From an archaeon (GTDB lineage: Archaea; Thermoproteota; Nitrososphaeria; Nitrososphaerales; Gagatemarchaeaceae), in contig JAKAUC010000009.1 in assembly GCA_021827865.1 (NCBI GenBank), positions 186,001 to 250,000 on the forward strand: a stretch of DNA of 64,000 nt. The letters are read 5' to 3'. Shown piece after piece: positions 43,370-58,055 of this stretch. The position numbers were made by a program, and so were the translations under genes. The number at the start of each line of letters is the position of its first letter. Position 1 is the first letter of the stretch. The notes beneath the pieces were generated by a model. It did no database searches, was not told the origin of the DNA, and saw only the letters and a list, made by a program, of their open reading frames with translations.

Positions 43370-44725
43370 TCAGGCGGCGGCCGAGACAGCCCAGCTGGGT
43401 ATCCCCTTGACCCTGGGCAGCTTGAGCGGGATGACGCCCATGAGGCACCCGGTCCTGGCGGCGTAGTCCAGCATCTTCTCGTGGGAGGACTGGAGGGTGT
43501 ACGCCTCGGCAAGGCTCGAAGCGTCCTTCCATGGCTTGGGGGGGTACACCAGGGTCGTCTCCACACGCCTGAACCTGAGGTCCTCGATTATCTCTGCGAG
43601 CACGTCCCTGTTGGACACCAGGCTGCTCAGGATGATGAAGGAGGACTGGACGTCCGGGGACGCGAGGCTGGCGACTAGGCTGCGGAAATCCGAGACAAGG
43701 GCCTGGCGCTTCCCCCCTGCCCTGCCCAGGAGCTCCGCGAACCTCCCCTTCCCCGCGAGTATGAGCTCCCTCCTCTCCCTGCTCAGGGACGAGACGTCGA
43801 GCATGGAGTAGAGGTCGTCGTAGGTGATGCGGCTCTCGGCCATGACCAGGTTCAGGGTGTTGATGACGACCTCCCACCCCTTCCCCTGCAGGGTGGTGAG
43901 CCTGGACCCCCCCTCGTAGGCGGTCACGGATATGGGGGTGATCCTGGCCGCCGAGGAGACGACCAGGTCCAGGAGCTGGGTGGCGAGCTCGTCGTGGGTC
44001 GCCCGGCCCGGGGTCTCGACGAAGTAGATGACGTGGACCGCGCCGCCCCCCTCGCTGTAGTACTTCTTGATCATCAGCGAGCTGGAGCCCGACCGGGCCG
44101 TCGCCTTCCAGTCGACCCTGCGGAGGCTGTCCCCGGAGGAGTACTCCCTGGTCTCCGCGTACTCGAGCCCCGCCCCGATGGTTTCCTTCTCAACCTCCCC
44201 CTCGGCCCCGGCGCCGACCCGGGTCAGGTACTCCAGGGCCGCCACGGCGGCGGCTATCAGCCTGGGGTAAGCCCTCCCCTTCACCTCCGCCGGGATGACC
44301 GCCCTGGAGGAGAAGAGGCCGTACCTGCTGCTCGCCCGGGCAGGGATGCCGTCGAGGGAGTAGGCCCCGGCGAGGTCGAAGGTCAGGGTGAAGCGGAAGG
44401 GCCAGGTCCCGGCTGGGTAGGACCCGCGCTCGGCCCGGAACCAGCCCACGGAGCCAAGGTCGAGGGTGACGCCCCGGGACGCCCGGAGGACTGATACGAA
44501 GCTCCTGCTGTTCCCTCTTAGAGCCCTGGCCTCGAAGGCAGAGGGCTGGAGGGCGAAGCTCCCGGCCCGCCTGGGGGTCAGGTACCCGTCGAGCAGGTCG
44601 TAGACGACGAAGACCGACACCGAGGCCGCGGCCGCCAGGAGGAGTGGGTCCACGAAGAGCGCCCCGGCGCCCAGCAGCAGGAGGAGCCCAGCAGCCACCC
44701 GCTTCCCGCGGTCGGTCAGGTTCAT
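43370..44725 (-). CDS. DUF58-domain membrane protein
   Basis: A 451-residue protein. Two hydrophobic segments at residues 8-45 (VAAGLLLLLGAGALFVDPLL) anchor it; near residue 200 is the DUF58 hallmark EYSSGDSLRRVDWKATARSG with SSLMIKKYY, then a vWA-like fold region. DUF58 proteins are nearly always paired with MoxR ATPases, as here (ATGA overlap). The role in archaea is not settled; assembly or maturation of surface or enzyme complexes is proposed for relatives. Confidence 0.9.
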   Translation of the reverse strand: MNLTDRGKRVAAGLLLLLGAGALFVDPLLLAAAASVSVFVVYDLLDGYLTPRRAGSFALQPSAFEARALRGNSRSFVSVLRASRGVTLDLGSVGWFRAERGSYPAGTWPFRFTLTFDLAGAYSLDGIPARASSRYGLFSSRAVIPAEVKGRAYPRLIAAAVAALEYLTRVGAGAEGEVEKETIGAGLEYAETREYSSGDSLRRVDWKATARSGSSSLMIKKYYSEGGGAVHVIYFVETPGRATHDELATQLLDLVVSSAARITPISVTAYEGGSRLTTLQGKGWEVVINTLNLVMAESRITYDDLYSMLDVSSLSRERRELILAGKGRFAELLGRAGGKRQALVSDFRSLVASLASPDVQSSFIILSSLVSNRDVLAEIIEDLRFRRVETTLVYPPKPWKDASSLAEAYTLQSSHEKMLDYAARTGCLMGVIPLKLPRVKGIPSWAVSAAA

Positions 44726-45705
44726 TCCTTGGGGACCGGGACCGTGCTCAGGGCCTCGGCGACGACCCTCTCCGGGGTGACCCCCTCGCTCTCCGCGTCC
44801 GGGGTGAGGATGGCCCTGTGGGTGATCACGTCCGCCGCCACGAACTTCACGTCGTCTGGGAGGGCGAAGTCCCGCCCCTCGAGGACTGCCTTGGCCCTGG
44901 CGAGCTTGTAGAGCCAGATGGTGGCCCTGGGGCTGGGCCCGGACCGCACGCTCTGGTTCGAGCGGAGGGCGTTGACCAGGGAGACGGCGTAGGCCCTGAC
45001 CCTGTCGGAGACGACGACGGAGCGGGTCTTCTCGGAGATCTTGAGAATCTGGTCGAGCTTCACCGCCGCCCTGGTCGTCCTGCTGTCGAGGGCGTCGATG
45101 TTCGAGAGTATCAGCCCCTCCTCCTCGGGGGACGGGTAGCCCATGGATATCCTCATGGCGAAGCGGTCGTTCTGCACCTCGGTGAGCGGGTAGGTCCCGG
45201 CGGAGCCCGAGGGGAGCTGGGTCGCTACGGCGATGAAGGGCTTGGGGAGGGCGATGGTCGAGCCCTCGATTGTGACCTGGCCCTCGGCCATGGCCTCGAG
45301 CATGGCGGCCTGGGTCCGCGGGGTCGCCCTGTTCAGCTCGTCCAGCATGACCACGTTGGCGAAGATCGGCCCCTCCCTCACCTCGAAGGCGCCTGTCCTC
45401 TGGTTGAAGACGTTGGAGCCGAGGATGTCGGCCGGGAGGAGGTCCGGGGTGAGCTGGAGCCTCTTGAAGGTCCCCCCGATGGTCCCCGAGAATGTCTTCG
45501 CTATGGTGGTCTTCCCTATCCCAGGGGGCCCCTCGAGGAGGACGTGCCCCCCGGCCATGAGGGCCATCAGCAGCTTGACTATCACGTCCTTCTTCCCGAC
45601 TATGACCGACTCCACGCTGTCGGTGATCTTCGCGGTGACGTCCGGCTCTGCTACCGTTTTTGTTTCATCTCCTCTCTTAGCCTGCGGAGCCTCTCTTGGC
45701 TCCAT
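44722..45705 (-). CDS. MoxR-family AAA+ ATPase
   Basis: A 327-residue AAA+ ATPase. Walker A is in HVLLEGPPGIGKTTIAKTFS, Walker B in FANVVMLDELNRATPRTQAA, sensor 1 in FIAVATQLPSGSAGTYPLTE, and the C-terminal lid has SGPSPRATIWLYKLARAKAV. The order fits the MoxR proper branch. It overlaps the DUF4350 gene upstream by 55 bases, more than usual, and DUF58 downstream by four. Together these make a chaperone-like unit acting on membrane or surface proteins. Confidence 0.93.
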   Translation of the reverse strand: MEPREAPQAKRGDETKTVAEPDVTAKITDSVESVIVGKKDVIVKLLMALMAGGHVLLEGPPGIGKTTIAKTFSGTIGGTFKRLQLTPDLLPADILGSNVFNQRTGAFEVREGPIFANVVMLDELNRATPRTQAAMLEAMAEGQVTIEGSTIALPKPFIAVATQLPSGSAGTYPLTEVQNDRFAMRISMGYPSPEEEGLILSNIDALDSRTTRAAVKLDQILKISEKTRSVVVSDRVRAYAVSLVNALRSNQSVRSGPSPRATIWLYKLARAKAVLEGRDFALPDDVKFVAADVITHRAILTPDAESEGVTPERVVAEALSTVPVPKE

Positions 45706-46637
45706 TCTGGGTGGTCACGGAGTAGCTCCTTTAACTCCTCCTCTTCGGCCGGGGGCTCCTCCCTGAACCTGTAGGCGACGACCCCGGCGAGGCCGACGAG
45801 GACGAGGGAGTACTTGAACTCCCACAGGGAGACCACGGAGTAGACCGAGACCTCGAAACCCCTCGCCACGGTCGCGGGGCTGACCGCGAAGTGTGAGGTG
45901 TCGAGGATCATGGTCCCGGTGGTGAGGTCCTTCAGGAGGTTGGCGTTGCCGTCCCTGTAGATCATTGAGTTGATGAAGACCGAGTCGTCTGAGATGAGGT
46001 AGACGGTCCCCCTCCCGTCGGGGATCTCCGCCACCACAGGGAAGGGCCCGTGGGGGGCGCTGGCTATGCTCTCCCCCGGCTGGGTGGGGTAGAGGTAGGA
46101 GAAGTCGCTGGAGTAGGCGAGGACCCTGGCCCCGGGGTCGGAGACGGTCAGGGTGGTGGCGTAGTTGAAGGCGATGCTCGAGACGTTGTGCATGTGGACG
46201 GTGGGGGCGACGACGAGGAAGGAGTTCCTGAAGTTGAACAGGGGGTCGGTGAGGACCCCGCCCGTGAACCGCGACGAGAGGCCCATCCCGGAGAGGAGGG
46301 TGTTGGCTATGGCGGCCTGGCCGTCGGCGACGACGAGGGTCCCTCCGCTCGCGACGAACGACGAGACCTGGGCGGCCTCGGCCGGGGTGTAGGGGCTGGA
46401 GGGGCCGTCCTCCAGCAGGACGTAGCCCGTCCCGTCCCGTGGGAGGGAGGAGACGTGGTTGATGATCGTCGGGTGCTCGACGGCCACGAAGGTGCTGAAC
46501 CCGTTCCAGGCCGTGTTCGAGGGCCGGAAGTCCCCGGGGTTCCCCAGGAGGCTGACCGTGGCGGCGAAGTAGACGAGGACGGAGACGAACAGCAGGGCGA
46601 CCACCACCCCGGCCAGGACCGCGGTCCTAGGCTTCAT
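45651..46637 (-). CDS. DUF4350-type membrane-anchored protein
   Basis: A 328-residue protein with an N-terminal membrane segment (AVLAGVVVALLFVSVLVYFA), a Rossmann-like extracytoplasmic part with GYVLLEDGPSSPYTPAEAAQ and VASGGTLVVADGQAAIANTL, a second segment near residue 280 (YSLVLVGLAGVVAYRF), and a short charged cytoplasmic tail. The middle matches DUF4350, commonly next to MoxR/DUF58. It overlaps the gene before it by 11 bases. Confidence 0.82.
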   Translation of the reverse strand: MKPRTAVLAGVVVALLFVSVLVYFAATVSLLGNPGDFRPSNTAWNGFSTFVAVEHPTIINHVSSLPRDGTGYVLLEDGPSSPYTPAEAAQVSSFVASGGTLVVADGQAAIANTLLSGMGLSSRFTGGVLTDPLFNFRNSFLVVAPTVHMHNVSSIAFNYATTLTVSDPGARVLAYSSDFSYLYPTQPGESIASAPHGPFPVVAEIPDGRGTVYLISDDSVFINSMIYRDGNANLLKDLTTGTMILDTSHFAVSPATVARGFEVSVYSVVSLWEFKYSLVLVGLAGVVAYRFREEPPAEEEELKELLRDHPEWSQERLRRLREEMKQKR

Positions 46638-48495
46638 CCTCTCTCCTCATCGCTTCGAGCTCGGCCTCGGCCCTCCCCTGGTCCCCGGGGTCGCGCGCCC
46701 CGGCGTAGAGGTGGCGCTCGAGGAGCGAGGATATCGCCCGGAAGTGCTCGAACCCCTTCAGCTTCCCCAGGAGGGCGGCGAGGTACTCGCGGACGGTCAT
46801 GTGCGGGAGGAGGGGGACCCCTGTCGCCTTCTCGGCCAGCTCGGCGGCCCTGTAGTAGACGGCGGGGAGGCCGGTGAGGGGTGGGCGGGGGGTCTGGGCA
46901 GCCCGCGGCTCGGCCTCCTCCTCGAGAGGGGCGAAGGCGAGGCCCTGGCCGGCGGAGCGCCTGCGGCGGACCACCAGGAGGAGCATCCCCGCGCTGGAGG
47001 CGGGGAAGACCAGGACGAGGGGGTTGATCACGAAGACGGTCACCGACACCGGGGCCGAGGATATCCAGGTCTGGGAGGGGTAGACCCCCAGGGAGTAGGT
47101 CCAGGCCCCGTTGGAGGTGGTCAGGGGAGGGGTGACTGTGAAGCTGAATGAGCCGGAGGCCGAAGTGTTGGTGTCGACCCCGGGGCTGGGGGTGGTGTTG
47201 AGGACCTGGGCCCCGGAGAGGGCCAGGCCGCCTACAAGGGCCGTGCCGGATACTGTCACCGGGAGCCCGGCGATGGCCACCGTGGGGGCGCTGGAGGTGA
47301 CCTGGACGCTCTCCTTGGTCACGTTGACGTCGAAGGGGTAGCTGAGCGGCCCCACGGTGCCGTTGCTCGGGGTGGCGAGGGTCAGGGCGTAGGTGCCGCC
47401 GCTAAGGCTCGAAGGCGGGGTGATGGAGAGGGAGAACGAGCCGTCTGCCGAGGTGACCCCCGTCGCGACCTCCTCGGGGCCCAGGGGGGACGTGCTGAAC
47501 CCTGACATGGACACCGTGTAGCCTCCGACGGGGAGGCCGCCGACGGTGAGGGTGCCGTTCACGCCCATGGGCTGCCCCGCGTAGGCCCTGTGTGGGAGAG
47601 TGACGTACGGCGTCGGGGTGGCGAACTCGATGTGCACGGAGACGGCGGCCGAGGTGGCGGGGGCGTAGACCAGGGAGTCGGCGCCGGAGGGGACGAAGGA
47701 AGCGAACATGGTGGCGTTCGCCCTGTAGTATAGAGGGGTCGACAGCACGGCGGAGTACAGGCCGGACGAGCCGGTGGTGGCGTTCCCCACGGGGGACCCG
47801 CCCAGGTAGACTGTCACGGTCCGGCCCGCCAGGGGGACGGAGCCGGCGGAGAGGGACCCGCTGACCGTGACGTTGGAGCCGACCTCGAAGGACCGCTGGC
47901 CGACCCCCAGGGTGACCGCCGTGGGCTCGAGCTTCGTGAGGCCGGTGAGGACGACGAGGAGGCGGTTGGCCTCGGCGGAGTACCCGGAGTACTGCACCTC
48001 AAGCGGCTGGAGCTTCTGGAGGAAGAGGGAGGAGGGGATCCCCGTCAGAGAGGCGAGTGCGGGGGCCGCAGCGAAGAGCTGGGTGAGTGTCTGGTTGACG
48101 CTCCTGAGGCCGGCGACAGCCGCGGTAAGGTTCGCCCGGGCGAGGGCGACCCTCCCGGTCTCAAGGTAGGTCGACGCGTTGTCGAGCTGGGAGTCGATGA
48201 CGAGGAAATGTCCTGCGGTGGAGTTGACCAGGCCGTTGAAGGTGTCGACGGCGCTGAGGATGTCAGACGGTATGTGGATGAACGGGGCGACGTGGAGGAG
48301 GGCCTTGGCTCCGGAGAAGTTCCCGCCGCTGATGGCGGCGACGACGGAGCCGTAGAAGAGGTAGAGCCCCTGGCCGTAGACGGGGTCGGAGGGGGCAGTG
48401 GCCGGGTCCACCTGGCGGGGGAACTGGATGGCGATGGCGACCGGGGCTGAGATGAGGATGAGGGCGACCAGGAAGAGCGCCACGAGCTTCTTCAA
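46627..48495 (-). CDS. secreted Ig-like/DUF4129-like membrane protein
   Basis: A 622-residue protein starting at TTG 48495 with a signal segment (KKLVALFLVALILISAPVAI). Residues 40-200 are helical; then come at least three Ig-like repeats with VTVSGSLSAGSVPLAGRTV, MGVNGTLTVGGLPVGGYTV and VTVSGTALVGGLALSGAQV. A membrane segment follows (VLVFPASSAGMLLLVV) with a basic stop-transfer. The tail has MTVREYLAALLGKLKGFEHF, like the DUF4129 end. Many Asn-x-Ser/Thr sites suggest glycosylation. Its Ig repeats would face outward. Confidence 0.82.
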   Translation of the reverse strand: MKKLVALFLVALILISAPVAIAIQFPRQVDPATAPSDPVYGQGLYLFYGSVVAAISGGNFSGAKALLHVAPFIHIPSDILSAVDTFNGLVNSTAGHFLVIDSQLDNASTYLETGRVALARANLTAAVAGLRSVNQTLTQLFAAAPALASLTGIPSSLFLQKLQPLEVQYSGYSAEANRLLVVLTGLTKLEPTAVTLGVGQRSFEVGSNVTVSGSLSAGSVPLAGRTVTVYLGGSPVGNATTGSSGLYSAVLSTPLYYRANATMFASFVPSGADSLVYAPATSAAVSVHIEFATPTPYVTLPHRAYAGQPMGVNGTLTVGGLPVGGYTVSMSGFSTSPLGPEEVATGVTSADGSFSLSITPPSSLSGGTYALTLATPSNGTVGPLSYPFDVNVTKESVQVTSSAPTVAIAGLPVTVSGTALVGGLALSGAQVLNTTPSPGVDTNTSASGSFSFTVTPPLTTSNGAWTYSLGVYPSQTWISSAPVSVTVFVINPLVLVFPASSAGMLLLVVRRRRSAGQGLAFAPLEEEAEPRAAQTPRPPLTGLPAVYYRAAELAEKATGVPLLPHMTVREYLAALLGKLKGFEHFRAISSLLERHLYAGARDPGDQGRAEAELEAMRREDEA

Positions 48496-48496
48496 A

Positions 48497-48739
48497 TCAG
48501 ATCGCCAGGATCGCCAGCACCCTGAGGGCAACAATGTAGGCGAAGACGATGAAGAGGACCACCCCGACGAAGTCGAAGGTGAGCCTGCGCGGGCGGAAGA
48601 CGGTGGAGGCGACGAAGTAGCATATCGTGAACATCGAGACGTAGACGTCCAGGGTGTAACCTCCTATCATGGACAGGCCGGCCGTGGAGAGGAGGAGGAG
48701 CGAGGCCAGTGTCATCAGGTAGAGGTTCTGGCGCTCCAA
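48497..48739 (-). CDS. small membrane protein, two segments
   Basis: An 80-residue protein with hydrophobic segments at about residues 5-25 (LYLMTLASLLLLSTAGLSMI), 33-50 and 60-80 (VGVVLFIVFAYIVALRVLAI). No family assigned. Its stop lies one base before the TTG of the Ig-like gene, so it is first in the MoxR operon. It may be a partner of that membrane complex. Confidence 0.65.
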   Translation of the reverse strand: MERQNLYLMTLASLLLLSTAGLSMIGGYTLDVYVSMFTICYFVASTVFRPRRLTFDFVGVVLFIVFAYIVALRVLAILAI

Positions 48740-48958
48740 TTCCCCCTCGGCTCCGGCCGATGATTATTTTAGCCTCGCGGGGCCGGTCGAGTGGAGGATC
48801 CTGGGGGTCCGGCTTGTCCCCGGCTCATCATGAGGAGGTCCCCATGTCTCGCTCGAAGGCAGCTTCCGCCGCCGGATGATTAGGGTGGTTCGGTAGTCTT
48901 GGTCCGTCGGCCAGGCCCGTGGTTACTGTTATGAGGCGTCGGGCGCCGCTCAGCCTGG

Positions 48959-51127
48959 TCAGCTGCACGCGGGCTCGGACGGCCAGCCCTGGGCGGGGGT
49001 CAGGAACGACTGGTAGTCGCTGAAGACGAATTCAGTGGAGTTCGCGCCCCCTCCCCCCCACGTGGAGGAGAAGAAGCCGCTGACCCTGATGTAGGCGGTG
49101 CGGTGGATGGTGATTGAACAGTCGGACACGGCGCTGGGGAGGAGGGTGAGGTTCCCCTGGGCGAGCTCCTGGCTGAGGAGGGTCTGGTTGATCGACGGGA
49201 AGTTGTAGACGGCGTGGGTGATGTCAAGGGAGACGAGGTTCCCCGTGACGCTGCTCCCCCCGCCCGTGGTGAGGGTGTATTTCGTCGGGGCGGCTCCAGG
49301 GGGTATGGCATTAGGGGGTTGGGTAGCCTGGGAGAACCCCCGGTACTCGTAGATGGCGTTGTTCGAATAATCTGAGACCCAGACGTTCGACCCTGAAACA
49401 ATCGCGTAGTACGGGGCGGACAGGGCGAGGGAACTGCTCGCGTTGGTGTAGACTTTGATCGGGGACCCGGTGTATGGGGCCGAGTACTCGTAGGCGCCCT
49501 GGGGGCTGTAGCCTGTGAGGGAGTCGTAGTTGCCGATCCACATGTTCCCCGAGGAGTCGAAAGAGATGCCCCATGGGCAGTACATTGGGAGCCCCCCGGA
49601 GCCTTGGAGGGTGACCGAGGTCCCGGTGCTGGAGCTCGTGATGGGCGCGGCGAATTTCAGGAGCGCGCCGGTACAGGCTTCGGCGCCCCAGAGGTTCCCG
49701 TTGGAGTCGAAGGCAAGGGTGTACACAGGGGACGAAGGCGTCAGGGTGATCGCCGCGTTGGCCGTTGTGATCGTCCCTGACCCGGAGAGGGCGCTGGCCG
49801 TGAACTCGTAGACGGTGGAATATGCGCTCACCCAGAGGTTCCCCGAGTTGAACGCCATGCCGTCGGCGCTCATGCTGATGGTCTCGAATGCCGCACCCGT
49901 GTAGGGGGCGTGGTACCCGTAGATGCTCCCGTCGTAGGCCATGACCCAGAGGTTCCCGCTGGAGTCGAAGCCCACCTCCCAGGCGTTGACGACGGTCTGA
50001 AGGACGGTGGGAGTCCCGGTGTAAGGAGCGGTAAACTCCAGCACCTGACCGCTGCCGTACGAGGGGACGTAGAGGTTCCCGCTGGAGTCGAAGGCTAACT
50101 TACCAGGATACGAGAGACCGCTGCTTATCGTGAGGAGAGGCAGATTGGGGTTGGAGCTGGAGTTGGAGCTAGACCCGGCGTACTCCGAGATCGATGAGTT
50201 GCCGCAGTTGGACACCCAGATGTTTGCACCGCTGGCCGTCACATCATAGGGACGGTTGAGCCCCGAGGTGATCGAAAAGATGGGCGCACCGGTGTAGGGG
50301 GAGGCGTATTCGTACACCGCGTCCCCGGAGTAGTCGATGACCCACATGTTGCCGCTGGAGTCGAAGGCTATGCCGTATGGGTAATAATAGGTCCCGCCGA
50401 CCCCGTTAGTCTCAGTCACCGTCATGGTCCCTGTGCTCGTGTCAGTGATCGGGGCTGCGACTTCTTCCACCCCCTTGGAAGAACTCGGGCCGGTAGTGGA
50501 TGTCCCCCAGAGGTTCCCATTGCTGTCGAATGCCATCCCGTAGAATATCCCGGTGCTCGCTGTCACAGCCGCGTTGGAGCTGGTCAGGGTCCCGCTCCCT
50601 GCGAGCGAGCTCGAAGCGAACTCCAGAAGCTGGCCGGTGCTTGTGGAGACCCAGAGGTTCCCGCTAGAATCGAAAGCCATCGAGATGGCAGCGACGCTGA
50701 TCGTCTTGAAGGGGGAGCCGGTGTAGGGGGCGGCGTACCCATAGATTGCCCCCGCATAGCCAGAGACCCACATGTTCCCCGCCGAATCGAAGGCGACGCT
50801 CCAGGCGTTGGTGAACGACGACAGCAAGACGCTGGGCGTTCCTGTGTAGGGAGACGCCAGCTCGGCCACGTAGCCGGAGGATCCGCTCGCGTAGTTGGTG
50901 ATGTACATGGTACCCGAGTTGAACGCGATCTGCCCGGGGCAGTTCAGCCCGGAGGTCACAGACATCGTCGGGGTCGTAGAGTAGGCGTGCCCGACCCTGA
51001 CGGTGGACGAGACGGCGAGGAAGACCATGAGACCGATGGCGAATGCGGCCCACCCCGCACCCGCGCTGCGCGCAAAAAGACGCACTTTGATACGAAGCGA
51101 ACCCTCTTCTGTTCGGTAATTAAGCAT
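48959..51127 (-). CDS. secreted beta-propeller surface protein with two tandem propellers
   Basis: A 722-residue protein from ATG 51127 with an N-terminal signal/anchor (AAFAIGLMVFLAVSSTVRVG). Then come a dozen repeats with the core AFDSSGNLWVS (variants GNMWVSG, GNLYVPS, GNLWGAE) and APYTGTP turns, as in NHL and streptogramin-lyase-like propellers. The second half (from about residue 330) repeats the first almost block for block. The C-terminal 90 residues are a separate domain with no repeats. It is Ser/Thr/Tyr-rich, outward-facing and likely adhesive or structural; no enzymatic residues are evident. Confidence 0.82.
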   Translation of the reverse strand: MLNYRTEEGSLRIKVRLFARSAGAGWAAFAIGLMVFLAVSSTVRVGHAYSTTPTMSVTSGLNCPGQIAFNSGTMYITNYASGSSGYVAELASPYTGTPSVLLSSFTNAWSVAFDSAGNMWVSGYAGAIYGYAAPYTGSPFKTISVAAISMAFDSSGNLWVSTSTGQLLEFASSSLAGSGTLTSSNAAVTASTGIFYGMAFDSNGNLWGTSTTGPSSSKGVEEVAAPITDTSTGTMTVTETNGVGGTYYYPYGIAFDSSGNMWVIDYSGDAVYEYASPYTGAPIFSITSGLNRPYDVTASGANIWVSNCGNSSISEYAGSSSNSSSNPNLPLLTISSGLSYPGKLAFDSSGNLYVPSYGSGQVLEFTAPYTGTPTVLQTVVNAWEVGFDSSGNLWVMAYDGSIYGYHAPYTGAAFETISMSADGMAFNSGNLWVSAYSTVYEFTASALSGSGTITTANAAITLTPSSPVYTLAFDSNGNLWGAEACTGALLKFAAPITSSSTGTSVTLQGSGGLPMYCPWGISFDSSGNMWIGNYDSLTGYSPQGAYEYSAPYTGSPIKVYTNASSSLALSAPYYAIVSGSNVWVSDYSNNAIYEYRGFSQATQPPNAIPPGAAPTKYTLTTGGGSSVTGNLVSLDITHAVYNFPSINQTLLSQELAQGNLTLLPSAVSDCSITIHRTAYIRVSGFFSSTWGGGGANSTEFVFSDYQSFLTPAQGWPSEPACS

Positions 51128-51332
51128 CGCGTTTTCGAGGCCCGAAAAAGAGTCGCGACGCATTGGATATCGCGGAGCCCCCGGCGGGGACGCGTCGCCT
51201 GCGAGCCGAGCCAGCCATGGCATGCCGGGTCTGGGGGAGCGGGAGATGGTCCGCGCCTGTCCCGGGGCCAAGCGGCACCCCTAGGACCGGGGTCTCGATG
51301 AGGACGACCCGACAGGGCCCCGCCTGGTCCCA

Positions 51333-52043
51333 CTAGAGCAGCCTGAAGGTGGCGGCCGAGTTCTTCCCCTCTATCGACTCCGAGGCCAGGGACACCCCCC
51401 TCTTCAGGACGGCCGAGGCGACCGACGCCGCTATGCTCGCGGGGATGCTCCCCAGGGTGACGAGGTACTTCGCCGCCTCGGTCTTCACCTTGACCCCTTT
51501 CATCTCCACCACGAGGGTGTCCCCGGTGACCACCGCCTTGGCCGATGAGCAGAGCTCTGAGACCTCGGTGAGGACGTACTGGATGGCGTCCTCCAGCCCC
51601 GAGGCCTCGGAGAGCTCGGAGGCCCTGACCAGCTCCGAGCCAGGGGGGACAACCAGGAGGACCGGGACCCCGTCCGCCTCGGACACGAGCCTCCGGGGGG
51701 CGTCCAGGAGGGAGGCGACGGAAGGCGCTCTGGGGTTGGCAGCCAGGGGGACGTAGGCAAGGGACTCGCCTTCCTTGGGCGGGAGGTAGACCGCCTTCTC
51801 CCGGGCGTCGAACTCCTCCAGGAGGGCCTCCACGTTCATCACCGAGGCGTGGATCACCCCCCTGACCGCGCCGCTGGGGACCGGGGACTCTGGCAGCGTG
51901 AGGGTGGCCCCGCCGAGTATGACGCAGGCGACACCCAGGGCCGCGAAGGGGGCGCTGAAGAGGACGTAGTAGGAGATGAGGGCCACGACGGCGCCGAAGG
52001 CGCCGATGCCAGCGCCGAAGGAGAAGTACCTGATCTTGGCCAA
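51333..52043 (-). CDS. membrane-anchored protein of unknown function
   Basis: A 236-residue protein with two N-terminal hydrophobic segments (FGAGIGAFGAVVALISYYVL; ALGVACVILGGATLTL), then a soluble domain with VMNVEALLEEFDAREKAVYL, VPVLLVVPPGSELVRASEL and GVKVKTEAAKYLVTLGSIPA. I know of similar archaeal proteins without a function. Start is TTG 52043. It lies four bases after the DUF1616-type gene and is in the same operon. Confidence 0.7.
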   Translation of the reverse strand: MAKIRYFSFGAGIGAFGAVVALISYYVLFSAPFAALGVACVILGGATLTLPESPVPSGAVRGVIHASVMNVEALLEEFDAREKAVYLPPKEGESLAYVPLAANPRAPSVASLLDAPRRLVSEADGVPVLLVVPPGSELVRASELSEASGLEDAIQYVLTEVSELCSSAKAVVTGDTLVVEMKGVKVKTEAAKYLVTLGSIPASIAASVASAVLKRGVSLASESIEGKNSAATFRLL

Positions 52044-52047
52044 GGCC

Positions 52048-52650
52048 CTACCCCGCCCTCGCCGCGAGCTTGACGTAGGACTCCTTCCTCACGGCCGCGA
52101 CCAGCGCCAGGGCCAGGCCGAGGGCAACCAGGGAGACGACTATGGGGTCGAGGCGTATCCCCCAGGGGGTGTAGTTGAGGAGCAGCCCCACCAGTGGGAC
52201 CAGGGCCAGGCTAAGGCCGATGGAGAGGGCGAGGCGCTCCAGGCTGTCGAGGTCCTCCTTCTTGGGGTAGAGGGCCTCGATGAGGGTGTAGCCCGGGAAG
52301 TAGAGCACAGCTATGGCGCCGAAGACGTACCTGACGTAGACGAAGGGGGGGTACTGCGGGAGGAGGTAGATCGAGCTCACAGTCACCGCGAGGAACGCCA
52401 CCGTCACCCAGAACCAGGAGGAGTAGGCGCGGCCCAGGTACTCGAAGGTCGAGGCCGGGGGGGATGGGTCGGCGAGCGCAGCCTTCTTCTCCTCCAGGAG
52501 CGAGTAGAGCGCCCTCGAGGCGTCGACGGGGGTGGCCCCGGTCCCCTGGGTCGCCCTTGAGAGGGCGTCCTTGACGGACATCTCGCTGGCGAGGACGGAG
52601 CTCAGGACCTCCTTCGCGCGCTTCTGCCTGGGGTTGACCTGGTCGCTCAT
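52048..52650 (-). CDS. DUF1616-type membrane protein, N-terminal module
   Basis: A 200-residue protein. A short cytoplasmic helical part (AKEVLSSVLASEMSVKDALS) is followed by four hydrophobic segments with the DUF1616 signature: YFPGYTLIEALYPKKEDLDS, then LERLALSIGLSLALVPLVGL and LNYTPWGIRLDPI. The usual DUF1616 protein carries this and an extracytoplasmic domain in one chain; here the second part is the next gene (52647-53129). The two overlap by four bases. Confidence 0.85.
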   Translation of the reverse strand: MSDQVNPRQKRAKEVLSSVLASEMSVKDALSRATQGTGATPVDASRALYSLLEEKKAALADPSPPASTFEYLGRAYSSWFWVTVAFLAVTVSSIYLLPQYPPFVYVRYVFGAIAVLYFPGYTLIEALYPKKEDLDSLERLALSIGLSLALVPLVGLLLNYTPWGIRLDPIVVSLVALGLALALVAAVRKESYVKLAARAG

Positions 52651-53129
52651 ACCGAGGGCCCCGTGACGTTGAGGTACAGCCAGTTGGAGGTGTAGAACTG
52701 GAAGGAGCTCGAGTTCGTCTCGTAGATCCAGAGCTCGAAGACGAGGCGGACGTTGGTCCCGTTCTGGCCCAGGCTCAGTGTGATGGGCTCTGTGACGTTC
52801 TGGTTGTTGAGCAGGACCATGCCGTAGGAGGCTATGGGGGGCGCGGCGAGGGGGACGCTCTGGTTGGCATTGGCCCTGGTGCCGAGCTTGGTCAGGACCT
52901 GGTAGTAGGACACCTGGCCCTCGTGGTTCCCGACGTAGAGGTAGAGGGAGAAGTTCTGGCCGGTGAAGACGCTGGTGGGGTAGTTGGCTATCTTCTGGCC
53001 GGGGCCGAGGATGCCCAGCTCGGAGAAGGGCTCGACGTTCCTGTTGGCGAAGTAGTAGCCTGAGACGTTGAAGACGGCGATGAGGACTATGACCCCCACG
53101 GCCGCGACCTTCATGTCGTCGTCGATCAC
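52647..53129 (-). CDS. DUF1616-type extracytoplasmic module with membrane anchor
   Basis: A 160-residue protein, GTG start, with an N-terminal anchor (MKVAAVGVIVLIAVFNVSGY) and an outer domain including FSELGILGPGQKIANYPTSV, FSLYLYVGNHEGQVSYYQVL and LVFELWIYETNSSSFQFYTS, the DUF1616 C-terminal pattern. Overlaps its neighbours on both sides (GTGA and ATGA). The split of DUF1616 into two genes is worth noting. Confidence 0.82.
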   Translation of the reverse strand: MIDDDMKVAAVGVIVLIAVFNVSGYYFANRNVEPFSELGILGPGQKIANYPTSVFTGQNFSLYLYVGNHEGQVSYYQVLTKLGTRANANQSVPLAAPPIASYGMVLLNNQNVTEPITLSLGQNGTNVRLVFELWIYETNSSSFQFYTSNWLYLNVTGPSV

Positions 53130-53623
53130 GGCTTCTTCACCCTCCAGTCGCTGTGGGTCCTCGACCAGTAGCGCCAGAAGAGGCGGGGGATGTAAAGATA
53201 GGCGAGGGCCGCCAGAGCAACCAGAACGACGGTCTCGACCCCGAGTTCAACCTGGGCCGTCCTGACGGATGCGGCACCAGCCGAAGCCACCCCCGGGGCG
53301 GCCTGGAGCACGTGCGAAGCGCTGTTGTACGCTTGGGTGTAGAGTGATGCTGCCAGTGCGGGGTCGGTCGAGTTAAGCCGGTCGGCCTCCTGGAGAAGAG
53401 AGATGGCTGTGTTAAGCTGAGCCACGAGCGATGTCACATTGCCCCCGCTCCTCTCGGCTGAGAGGACCGCGGCGTAGGCTTGGCTTACCTCACTATCTGC
53501 CTGAGAGGTCTGCGAATGGACAGCTGGGACCATTACGAAGGCTAGCATGACCGTTACTGCGGTAAGAATTGCGAGGCACCTGCGTCGTCGGAGTCCAAAG
53601 GTAGCCGCTGACCGACTCACCAT
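53126..53623 (-). CDS. secreted, C-terminally anchored helical protein
   Basis: A 165-residue protein. A signal peptide (LAILTAVTVMLAFVMVPAV) is followed by a helical extracytoplasmic part (QADSEVSQAYAAVLSAERSG; LVAQLNTAISLLQEADRLN) and a membrane segment (GVETVVLVALAALAYLYIP) with a basic tail. Helical repeats of this type are also in the N-terminal part of the Ig-like protein at 46627. No family assigned. First gene of the DUF1616 unit. Confidence 0.7.
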   Translation of the reverse strand: MVSRSAATFGLRRRRCLAILTAVTVMLAFVMVPAVHSQTSQADSEVSQAYAAVLSAERSGGNVTSLVAQLNTAISLLQEADRLNSTDPALAASLYTQAYNSASHVLQAAPGVASAGAASVRTAQVELGVETVVLVALAALAYLYIPRLFWRYWSRTHSDWRVKKP

Positions 53624-53728: not shown

Positions 53729-54733
53729 TTGAACCACGTCAACCAGAATCTATCTCGTCTGTGGCCCCTGGTAGCGGCTGTCGCTTTCACTTTGGTCGTT
53801 TATGGCGCGCCGGTGTTCCTCCTCGTCTCGAAAGTGGGCGAAGTGCTCGGGGGAGTCTTCGATACCTCTGTCCCGGCGTATCCGCTTGCAGGGATGTTCT
53901 TCGTGCTTGTGTTCGTGTCATTTAGGAGGAAGGAGCTAGAACGGCTTTTGGCAGACCAAAGTCGCGACTGGGCCACGACTCTGGCAGGGGTCGTCATAGC
54001 CTTCGCTCCCTTCGCAATTCAGCTTACATTGGGAACTCAAGTCGACGCCTCATACTCTTATGCCGGACTGGCAGTTGTCTGTTCGTTTTTCGGGATCCTG
54101 ACCGCGATCAGGCCTTCACTTTTCCGGTTTCTGGCCCCCTACTTCATGCTCTATGCACTGGCGGTGGGATTTGTCGGCGCGCTGACGGCCTCGTTCGGAG
54201 ACCCACTTGCAGTCGTCGTTGCGGTGATAAGCAGCGGTTTCACAAGAGCGCTCGGAGAACCTGTTCAGTGGTCGTCGGTCTACATAACATTCACAGGGGC
54301 GGGAGGGCAAGCCGTCAATCTAGAGATCTCCCAGGAGTGCTCGGGCATCGCTTCGATGTCCATATTCCTTCTCATTCTCGGGATGATGCATCTCGACATG
54401 AACTCGAGCGTGACCAAGAGCGCCTTCTTCGCCTTTGGTGGCTCTGCGTTATTCGTCCTCCTCAACTCTCTCAGGGTAGTCGGCCTCGTGACCGCTGGCA
54501 TCTATTCGGGCACCAACCTCATGTGGAACCTGCATGGTTGGCTCGGGTATGTACTTTACATCGTCGGGTACACTCTTCTTCTCTTTCTTTACCTCGGAGC
54601 TAAGAAGGTTCCAGGACGCTCGAGAAACGCCACTGAAGCAGGGACGCTCGTTGGCCAGGGGCTGGGCAATGGCCAGGAGGACAAAAGGGGTTTGGATCCT
54701 TTAGAATCCAGGGAGGGGCTAGACGACGATTGA
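53729..54733 (+). CDS. exosortase/archaeosortase-family transpeptidase
   Basis: A 334-residue membrane enzyme with about eight hydrophobic segments. The catalytic triad is visible: Cys in EISQECSGIASMSIFLLIL, Arg in LFVLLNSLRVVGLVTAGIY and His in MWNLHGWLGYVLYIVGYTL, in the usual order and spacing. Such enzymes remove a C-terminal sorting helix from surface proteins and attach them to a lipid or another carrier. It faces two exported proteins, one of which (55147-56025) has the right C-terminal signal. Start is TTG 53729. The last 45 residues are a charged cytoplasmic tail, running into the end of the opposing gene. Confidence 0.92.
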   Translation: MNHVNQNLSRLWPLVAAVAFTLVVYGAPVFLLVSKVGEVLGGVFDTSVPAYPLAGMFFVLVFVSFRRKELERLLADQSRDWATTLAGVVIAFAPFAIQLTLGTQVDASYSYAGLAVVCSFFGILTAIRPSLFRFLAPYFMLYALAVGFVGALTASFGDPLAVVVAVISSGFTRALGEPVQWSSVYITFTGAGGQAVNLEISQECSGIASMSIFLLILGMMHLDMNSSVTKSAFFAFGGSALFVLLNSLRVVGLVTAGIYSGTNLMWNLHGWLGYVLYIVGYTLLLFLYLGAKKVPGRSRNATEAGTLVGQGLGNGQEDKRGLDPLESREGLDDD

Positions 54734-55150
54734 GGCGGTGTACACGAGGGTGCCGTTCTGGTCGGAGCCGTTGTAGACCTGTGCTGTTGCGACGGTCACT
54801 CCGTTGGACGGGGCGGGGATGTTCACATATGCCCGGAACACCGCAAGGTCTGAGACCGAGGCAGTCCCGTGGCCTGCTACGATGTACCCGCTGGTTGAGT
54901 TGTAGCTGATTACGTAATAGTATTGACCCATCCCGCCTCCGGTGTAGTTGATCTGAAGGTAGGCTGTAGGTAGAAACGTCCCAGGGGTGTACAAGGCAGG
55001 CTGCGCCCAGTATGATTGGAAAGAGTACGCGACGTGGGTCCCAACAGCGTTGTCGTAGGAGCTCAGACCGATGAACACTATCGCAGCTACAGTGACTCCT
55101 AAAGCTAGGAGTCTCTGCTTTCTCTTTTTCCCGTTCAAGTATCGCGTCAT
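54719..55150 (-). CDS. exported protein, archaeosortase neighbour
   Basis: A 143-residue protein starting at ATG 55150 with a basic N-terminus (TRYLNGKKRKQRLLALG) and a membrane segment (VTVAAIVFIGLSS). The outer part is a small beta domain with TFLPTAYLQINYTGGGMGQY and VFRAYVNIPAPSNGVTVATA. It overlaps the sorted-protein gene by four bases (ATGA) and its end meets the archaeosortase gene end (15-base convergent overlap). It may be a companion subunit or pilin-like partner. No C-terminal sorting signal. Confidence 0.7.
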   Translation of the reverse strand: MTRYLNGKKRKQRLLALGVTVAAIVFIGLSSYDNAVGTHVAYSFQSYWAQPALYTPGTFLPTAYLQINYTGGGMGQYYYVISYNSTSGYIVAGHGTASVSDLAVFRAYVNIPAPSNGVTVATAQVYNGSDQNGTLVYTASIVV

Positions 55151-56025
55151 GGGCTCTCTCCGAGGACGGGTTCTGACTTCCTCCATCGAGCCGCTAGGTA
55201 GTAAAGTAAGGGCAACGTGACAAGAATCGGAAGAACCCCTGAAGGAAATAGTGGGACGGCCGTCGGCGTCGAAGATTTGACCGCAACCACGCCTTCGCTC
55301 CAAGAGCCCGATGCAGCGCTGAAGGCCAGAGTGTAAGATCCCCCGCCCCCTCCGTTCTGATAACCAGCTGCGGTGTACACCGTCCCCGTGTTTGCAACGA
55401 TGAGCGTAGTTGCCCCCGTCGCGGAGAGCGTGCCACCACTGGTCGTTACACCGGCGAAAATGAAGTCGTTGCCATCCGACAAGGAGCTTACCGTCTGAGA
55501 CGGCGTAGTCCCGCTCCCAGCTACCGGGGTGCACGTCCCGTCAAATGGGCTCGCGTCGGTCGTGTCATAGTTGCTTATCCCGAACGCGACCATCCCTCCG
55601 GTGGCGCTCCCCGCGTTTCCGCTTTCTGTCTCTGAAACCGTAGCACTGGAAAGCGTAGAGGCCGCCTTGCCTGCGTAGATGGCGATTATCGGCGCGCTGT
55701 TAGTGAGAGTGCAGACGCTTGAGAATGTTACTCCGGACAGAGTTGGAGTGGCAGGAGTGTCGCCCGTCACGTCTCCGGTGACAATGACGACTATCAAATC
55801 GGGCGAACTGGAGGTGCTGAGGGACCCTGACATCGTTATGGGATGTGATGATCCCCCACTTGCCGAGCCTACGGTCGCAACACATGCAACCCCACCGCAA
55901 TCTAGCGCAGGGGTCGCAGCTAGAGTGACAGGAACCGCTGCCAAGGTTGAAGTGGCGAACAATGCCACTACCAACAGCACGATTGGGATGTTTCTTATCT
56001 TTGGTTCGCGCCTCGAGGGACTCAT
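55147..56025 (-). CDS. surface protein with archaeosortase-type C-terminal sorting signal
   Basis: A 292-residue secreted protein. The signal peptide is IPIVLLVVALFATSTLAAVP. The outer part is rich in Ser, Thr, Gly and Ala with a repeated beta layout (SGSLSTSSSPDLIVVIVTGD; GGTLSATGATTLIVANTG). The C-terminus has the three-part sorting signal: TAVPLFPSG, a hydrophobic helix (VLPILVTLPLLYYLAA), then RWRKSEP. The VPxFP-like motif resembles VPEFP-type signals of archaeal surface proteins. The archaeosortase gene 430 bases away is the likely processing enzyme. Confidence 0.85.
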   Translation of the reverse strand: MSPSRREPKIRNIPIVLLVVALFATSTLAAVPVTLAATPALDCGGVACVATVGSASGGSSHPITMSGSLSTSSSPDLIVVIVTGDVTGDTPATPTLSGVTFSSVCTLTNSAPIIAIYAGKAASTLSSATVSETESGNAGSATGGMVAFGISNYDTTDASPFDGTCTPVAGSGTTPSQTVSSLSDGNDFIFAGVTTSGGTLSATGATTLIVANTGTVYTAAGYQNGGGGGSYTLAFSAASGSWSEGVVAVKSSTPTAVPLFPSGVLPILVTLPLLYYLAARWRKSEPVLGESP

Positions 56026-56231
56026 CTTCTACGTTTGATCCTCCTCTTGCTGACCATCCCCCAGATCGACTCCGTCGTCCCGTTGCCTTCGAAGTAGTCG
56101 TCCAGGATGGCGTTGACTATCTCGCTCCGGTCGACCTGAAGCTCCTCGAGCTTCTTCGCATGAATGTCCAGCGCGACCACCACTTCTCCGTCGAATGAGA
56201 CGCCTGCCCGGATCTTCTTCGAAGACATCAT
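56022..56231 (-). CDS. ribbon-helix-helix-like regulator, copy 1
   Basis: A 69-residue basic protein. KKIRAGVSFDGEVVVALDIH is a beta strand plus helix, then ELQVDRSEIVNAILDDYFEG is the second helix, in the layout of CopG/RHH dimers; a basic tail (SKRRIKRRR) follows. It overlaps the surface protein gene by four bases, so it could control that unit. ATG pair at 56231 and 56228. A related gene is just upstream. Confidence 0.65.
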   Translation of the reverse strand: MMSSKKIRAGVSFDGEVVVALDIHAKKLEELQVDRSEIVNAILDDYFEGNGTTESIWGMVSKRRIKRRR

Positions 56232-56322
56232 GGGACCCCCTTCGCGGACTTGTCCGGCAGCCCGCCGCTCCTCGGTTCGAGCCTGCGCGGCAGAGCGCCG
56301 TGGACCGTCCAAGGTGGGTTGG

Positions 56323-56538
56323 TCATGAAGCCCTCCGCATGGTCCACCGCCCGCTGACGCCCTCCCAGCCCGATTCCGTTGTGCATCCCCCCGCCTCGAA
56401 GAATTCGGTCAGTACCGCGTTCACCGCCTCGCCCCGATTGGCCCCGAACCCCTTCGGCTGGGGAGAGCGCTTCCCGATTGGCTCCGCTAGTCCGCTGTCG
56501 AAAGAGACTCCTGCGTTCGCGGTCATTCTGGTAGCCAC
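56323..56538 (-). CDS. ribbon-helix-helix-like regulator, copy 2 (degenerate)
   Basis: A 71-residue protein related to the one at 56022-56231: AGVSFDSGLAEPIG aligns with AGVSFDGEVVVALD, and RGEAVNAVLTEFFEAGGCTT with RSEIVNAILDDYFEGNGTT. Here the first helix holds two Pro residues (KRSPQPKGFGA), which should break it, so the copy may be inactive. Preceded by a palindromic operator. Confidence 0.5.
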   Translation of the reverse strand: MATRMTANAGVSFDSGLAEPIGKRSPQPKGFGANRGEAVNAVLTEFFEAGGCTTESGWEGVSGRWTMRRAS

Positions 56539-57206: not shown

Positions 57207-58055
57207 GTGCAGGACGTAGACGACGGAGTAGGGCGGGCGGCTGTCGCGATGACCGGAGAAGAAGGGTTGGGACCCAAAGACGTGATCGCGGTTCTCTACG
57301 ACCCGGGGAAGACCTTCTTCCATGTGGTGGTCACCATGAAGAACGAGCCAGGGGCCCTGGCCGACGTCGCGAAGAAGGTCAGCTCTGCTGGCATCAACGT
57401 CCTCGGGGGGTTCACGAGGGCATCCCCCCAGGAGCCGACCGGGGTCTGGAGTTTCTTCGCCGAGCCCCAGGGGGAGGGTCAGGACTCAGAGAAGGTCAGG
57501 CGCGCGATCGAATCCTCAAAGTATTGCGAGAGGGTGGACGTGAACACCAGCAGGTCGGGGCTGCTCGTCGACTCCTATCACTTCCCGATCAGGTACAACC
57601 CCGGGGAGAGGGCGGTGATGATATCCCCGGCGACCCTGAGGCTGATCTTCGACCGTCTGATATCCTGGTTCGGGACCGGAGGCGAAGCGATCGTGTACGA
57701 GATGGGGCGGACGGCAGGGCTCTATGGAGGCCAGAGGATGATCAGTCTCATGGGAATGGAGGCCTATGGCGCGCTTCGCGCAGAGATGGTCGGGATCTAT
57801 GCGGCGGTGGGATGGGGGAAGGTGACATTGGTAGAAGAGGGGGAAGACAGGGAAGTCTACAGGGTGTCGGGGAGCTTCGAATGCGCCGGGGTAGAGTCGG
57901 CGAAGCCCAAGGCCCAGTTCATGCGCGGGGCGATAGCAGGCTTCGTGCAGGCGAGGAAGGAAGGCGTGCCGAAGTGCGTGGAGACGAAGTGCGAAGCCAT
58001 GGGGGAATCCTTCTGCGAGTTCGTGGTGGAGTCGAAGAGGCACGCCGGCTCGTAG
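57207..58055 (+). CDS. ACT-V4R domain protein
   Basis: A 282-residue soluble protein with two domains. Residues 30-110 form an ACT domain (FFHVVVTMKNEPGALADVAK, then VSSAGINVLGG), a small-ligand sensor fold. Residues 120-280 form a V4R domain (AIVYEMGRTAGLYGGQRMIS; EDREVYRVSGSFECAG; GVPKCVETKCEAMGESFCEF), with the cysteine group that may hold a metal or small hydrophobic ligand. V4R proteins serve as sensors or carriers. Start is GTG 57207. It is 50 bases after the small membrane gene. Confidence 0.85.
   Translation: MQDVDDGVGRAAVAMTGEEGLGPKDVIAVLYDPGKTFFHVVVTMKNEPGALADVAKKVSSAGINVLGGFTRASPQEPTGVWSFFAEPQGEGQDSEKVRRAIESSKYCERVDVNTSRSGLLVDSYHFPIRYNPGERAVMISPATLRLIFDRLISWFGTGGEAIVYEMGRTAGLYGGQRMISLMGMEAYGALRAEMVGIYAAVGWGKVTLVEEGEDREVYRVSGSFECAGVESAKPKAQFMRGAIAGFVQARKEGVPKCVETKCEAMGESFCEFVVESKRHAGS

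Follow-up and report, generated by a model that had tools for sequence, protein, structure and literature searches.

Several described sorting systems resemble the locus reported here. Archaeosortase A (ArtA) of Haloferax volcanii, paired with PGF-CTERM proteins, is a Cys-dependent enzyme which recognises a tripartite tail and acts on many proteins, among them the S-layer glycoprotein. In Haloferax, cleavage by ArtA is coupled to lipid attachment, and homologues of archaetidylserine synthase and decarboxylase are needed (PMC7157517). Archaeosortase C (ArtC) and its PEF-CTERM targets (TIGR03762, TIGR03024) belong to the same superfamily as the enzyme considered here and share with our locus a P-x-F tail before a C-terminal helix, while the thaumarchaeal PEFG-CTERM tail (TIGR04296), from the same phylum, combines P-x-F with a nearby Gly. 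Single-target, or 'dedicated', sorting systems, in which one enzyme and one target are encoded by adjoining genes, have been described for rhombosortase (PMC3237569).

The DNA analysed (the window; 64,000 nucleotides of genome G000, from an uncultured archaeon) quite probably encodes a dedicated archaeosortase together with an adjoining target, which the enzyme would cleave and anchor. The sorting motif, VPLFPSG, differs from that of the ArtA system and departs from PEF-CTERM in having Leu for Glu and a fixed Gly two residues past FP. Unlike the rhombosortase systems, the enzyme is of the archaeosortase type, and the same cell contains a second, general archaeosortase.

The locus and its enzyme

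The features of the locus are listed below.

51333..53623 (-): conserved neighbours, in the same order at seven loci: a 165-amino acid membrane protein, DUF1616 in two genes and a 236-amino acid protein
53729..54733 (+): archaeosortase of clade A (see below), TTG start
54338..54340 (+): codon of the putative catalytic Cys204 (QECSG)
54473..54475 (+): codon of the putative catalytic Arg249 (NSLR)
54533..54535 (+): codon of the putative catalytic His269 (HGWLG)
54719..55150 (-): coupled gene, encoding an N-terminal helix and an Ig-like domain without a sorting tail; homologues at loci L061, L065, L066 and L064, broken in L063
55147..56025 (-): target, with a signal segment, a beta sandwich and a C-terminal sorting tail
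55177..55236 (-): C-terminal hydrophobic helix (residues 264-283, from model and sequence), followed by basic residues
55237..55257 (-): putative VPLFPSG sorting motif
56022..56312 (-): first operon gene, a probable ribbon-helix-helix DNA-binding protein; homologues in the same place at other loci

By profile matching, the 53729-54733 product is a member of the exosortase/archaeosortase superfamily, scoring 60.5 bits against PF09721 (cut-off 25.7) and 45.2 bits against TIGR04178 (cut-off 23). The Cys-Arg-His triad noticed in the initial annotation was confirmed: Cys204, Arg249 and His269 do not vary across 19 aligned relatives, and their catalytic roles would be those of the family. The TTG start coincides with the TTG starts of orthologues at L061, L062 and L065. 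The enzyme profile matched no solved structure. The enzyme reached the cut-off of no named subfamily, scoring 31.2 bits against the Exosortase model (TIGR02602; cut-off 105.55) and 24.3 bits against Archaeosortase C (TIGR03762; cut-off 100). Placement in a known branch with another motif was to count against the pair; the enzyme lies in no named branch.

The target stop codon overlaps the start of the coupled gene as ATGA, and the stop of the 56022-56312 gene overlaps the target start in the same way; from these two junctions we read the three genes as one minus-strand operon. The 3' end of the coupled gene overlaps that of the enzyme gene by 15 bases. The ribbon-helix-helix fold of the first gene was assigned by eye, Pfam matches to it not being significant. 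Just upstream of it, positions 56332-56514 hold a second stretch, 41% similar, and G018 has two tandem copies.

The target and its sorting tail

The target begins with an N-terminal signal segment and carries the tail STPTAVPLFPSGVLPILVTLPLLYYLAARWRKSEPVLGESP, which is tripartite (VPLFPSG, helix and basic end); its C-terminal sequence ends ...TAVPLFPSGVLPILVTLPLLYYLAARWRKSEPVLGESP. In the AlphaFold2 model a signal helix is followed by a beta sandwich (approximately residues 60-250) and the C-terminal helix, with the sorting motif in a low-confidence linker. Foldseek returned no match to the target at E 0.001 or below, and in fold comparison VIA Z did not exceed 6.6, the matches being unrelated beta domains. 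No convincing relative of solved structure emerged for the target or for the coupled gene, and no Pfam or NCBIfam family reached its cut-off on either.

The description of a convergent gene ending in VPLFPSG, a helix and a basic end was borne out. The P, F, P and G of the motif are invariant in six family members, although the exported domain drops to approximately 35% identity. The full tail profile recovered four tails from the whole genome at E 4e-11 or better, the next match being at E 0.15; since this profile contains the target tail, a leave-one-out test was run, in which the target was found with E 7e-6 among the 477 open reading frames of the window (next frame, E 0.8). The recommended genome scan for similar tails gave 44 DNA-level matches to P-x-F-P-x-G in this 99%-complete genome (65 for a reversed-pattern control), all of which were read; only the match in the target lies in a C-terminal tail that has the helix and the basic end. 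Contamination, estimated at 7.47% in G000, was rejected as the source of the locus: an identical 13.6 kb contig occurs in G008 and orthologous loci in the genus.

The other three tails in the genome are all of a second type, class B (see below): IPVFPFQ, IPEFPLQ on a 1499-amino acid frame and VPEFPFS on a 447-amino acid frame. They outnumber the target tail three to one, a situation which, had the VPLFPSG type been missing, was to count against the pair; that type is present, and the others go with a different enzyme. Thus G000 has one tail of the target's class (class A), encoded next to the enzyme, and the initial proposal of a signal dedicated to one protein holds in the window genome. Elsewhere it does not: G022, G009 and G018 have two class A tails each.

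Two archaeosortase clades and two tail classes

The second archaeosortase of G000 lies on contig C11 and is 33% identical to the window enzyme. Its gene (L068, 9740-11351) adjoins that of its partner, the IPVFPFQ protein, whose tail carries Val at a position that is Glu in nearly all relatives. A tree of 51 relatives placed the window enzyme in clade A (8 rows, support 100/100), with G009 and G018 enzymes branching first. Its neighbour, clade B, comprises 26 rows (99/96); the fork joining the two is weak (89/59). Clade A is marked by [QE]ECSG, N[SA][LV]R and HGW[LV]G, clade B mostly by TPGCSS and HNW[IV]G. Clade A enzymes occur in 9 of 61 near genomes, all within the genus; outside it, a sample of 398 genomes from the phylum gave no match. 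Of the two archaeosortases in the genus, that of clade B is widespread and accompanied by several tailed proteins per genome.

The tails fall into two classes. Class A reads [VI]P[LSE]FPxG and has a shorter helix than class B, whose members are mostly GG[IV]PEFP[FYLM]Q and number up to eight per genome. Clade B enzymes mostly adjoin a Ser/Thr/Gly-rich protein with a class B tail. The arrangement of enzyme, coupled gene and target recurs in other genomes: a target-family protein adjoins the clade A enzyme in G000, G008, G012, G022 and G004, and a class A protein of a different kind does so in G018 and G009. The tails at clade A loci are VPLFPSG (G000, G008), IPLFPEG (G012), IPLFPQG (G022), VPLFPFG (G004), IPSFPQG (G029, cut by the contig end), APEFPVG (G018) and IPEFPDG (G009), and G022 has a second target-family protein ending in VPEFPLG. 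VPLFPSG was therefore rejected as a species-unique motif, orthologous tails reading otherwise. What stood of the proposed variant enzyme-signal pair is the dedicated pair itself, with its single genomic tail, conserved adjacency and two tail classes tracking two enzyme clades; VPLFPSG as the defining motif was abandoned. From the alignments, VPLFPSG is one local spelling of a relaxed PEF-type signal in which P-x-F-P-x-G and the helix spacing are the constant parts.

Among the 30 genus genomes, several of them incomplete, class A tails occur in eight of the nine with a clade A enzyme and in one of the 21 without (Fisher P 1e-5, kinship ignored); class A was first defined next to clade A enzymes, and the genus-wide tail search used both classes together. 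Full-length target homologues are found in 6/9 and 0/21, respectively. Two genomes are exceptions. G023 has a clade A enzyme, class B tails only and a frameshifted coupled gene. In G003 (L174, 2271-4089, contig C1) a third, distant exosortase-like enzyme adjoins a VPEFPLG protein with class A-like helix spacing. Large tail-less proteins of 813 and 815 amino acids, with repeats related to the target domain, were also seen in G015 and G016 (L196, 6668-9109; L197, 3798-6245), that of G015 lying approximately 8 kb from its DUF1616 cluster.

Motif position three is L, S, E or D in class A and mostly E, but also V, A, Q, D or F, in class B. Since the earliest clade A branches (G009, G018) keep Glu, Leu most plausibly arose in the clade A crown and so looks derived, an assignment with few lineages behind it and with VPEFPLG also present in G022. 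This variability would also suit an unrecognised member of the ArtC/PEF-CTERM family in which Leu has drifted neutrally at a position that tolerates change, and ArtC is the commonest named archaeosortase match, found for 17 of the 19 relatives of the enzyme. We regard that explanation as doubtful: the enzyme reaches 24.3 of the 100 bits required for ArtC, and the target tail gives no match to PEF-CTERM (TIGR03024, cut-off 23 bits) even at E 10. Against PEFG-CTERM (TIGR04296, cut-off 25 bits) the window tail likewise had no match at E 10, and the G004 tail scored 14.3 bits.

It is less likely still that the two archaeosortases have no separate specificity and take any P-x-F-P tail, the pairing being one of gene neighbourhood only. 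The P-x-F-P core is indeed common to all 23 aligned tails of both classes, position three varies in each, and G023 combines a clade A enzyme with class B tails. However, leave-one-out profiles assigned every training tail to its own class (8/8 A and 12/12 B, i.e. 20/20), class A tails track the clade A enzyme, and the tail class of a neighbouring protein nearly always matches the clade of its adjoining enzyme. That the C-terminal helix is a plain, never processed membrane anchor and the enzyme acts elsewhere is most improbable, given the invariance of the motif residues beside so divergent an exported domain and the same tail type on unrelated proteins next to clade A enzymes.

Divergence of the cassette and proposed mechanism

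The enzyme, target and coupled gene together are, on sequence comparison, a fast-changing cassette, more divergent than the flanking genes. Between genomes, target orthologues share 32-39% identity, one pair excepted, as against 26-47% for the coupled genes and 43-66% for the enzymes. The DUF1616 genes and the 236-amino acid protein show 82-94% identity among G000, G022, G004 and G029; for the VWA gene the range within the crown, leaving G023 aside, is 83-99%. In 21/21 genome pairs the enzymes of clade A resemble each other less than do those of clade B (means 55% and 71%). In the excepted pair, G022 and G029, the targets are 91% identical and the enzymes 62%, which suggests exchange; in G029 the two genes are on different contigs. 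Compared with G012, DNA identity drops from 92% to no alignment at position 56040, at the head of the target gene; as the 92% flank exceeds the 70-80% at the clade B locus of the same genomes, the flank may itself be the exchanged part.

The cassette adjoins a cluster (43370-53129) of DUF58, MoxR ATPase, DUF4350, DUF4129-like and split DUF1616 genes. The G009 enzyme is encoded at the opposite end of the DUF58/MoxR/DUF1616 cluster. Among genus genomes without clade A, 2/12 have a DUF1616 gene, namely G001 and G015. Within the window cluster, 48959-51271 encodes a secreted beta-propeller (NHL-like) protein with no homologue in the other loci compared. Also adjoining the cassette is a V4R domain protein (57207-58055; weak ACT match, below cut-off), which is 95% identical in G012 and was not seen at the loci of G022 and G004.

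The coupled gene usually travels with the target. It has, as initially noted, no sorting signal, and the helper role offered for it is unproven: G009 has enzyme and partner without it, and G001 keeps it with no adjoining enzyme, directly before the genes for the small membrane protein and DUF1616. The G001 arrangement suggests that it may be part of the neighbouring cluster rather than the enzyme's helper. A pilin was also considered and rejected; the best Foldseek match (E 5e-3) was to one archaeal pilin among generic Ig-like domains, and inspection by eye showed no consistent class III pilin signal.

Returning to the dedicated pair, we propose that the target would cross the membrane by Sec via its N-terminal signal, and that its C-terminal helix would stall there. 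Cys204, aided by Arg249 and His269, would attack at or near P-x-F-P-x-G; the helix and basic end would be removed, and the new C terminus would be joined to a lipid amine in the manner proposed for ArtA. The beta domain would then be held outside the cell by its lipid. For this system we infer both processing and lipid attachment. Recognition would rest on P-x-F-P-x-G with the short helix spacing, a combination that would separate this system from that of the clade B enzyme with its PEFP[FYL]Q targets. As a tentative extension, the genes may form an allelic surface-protein cassette, co-diversifying and exchanged between related archaea at one chromosomal site, with its tail class insulated from general PEF-type sorting.

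With two archaeosortases and two separable tail classes in the same cell, nature provides a test of signal reading in this family. Most PEF-type tails have Glu at position three; here that position varies, and P-x-F-P-x-G and the helix spacing are fixed. The faster divergence of the cassette, next to stable neighbours, suggests that something which the anchored protein encounters outside the cell favours change in it.
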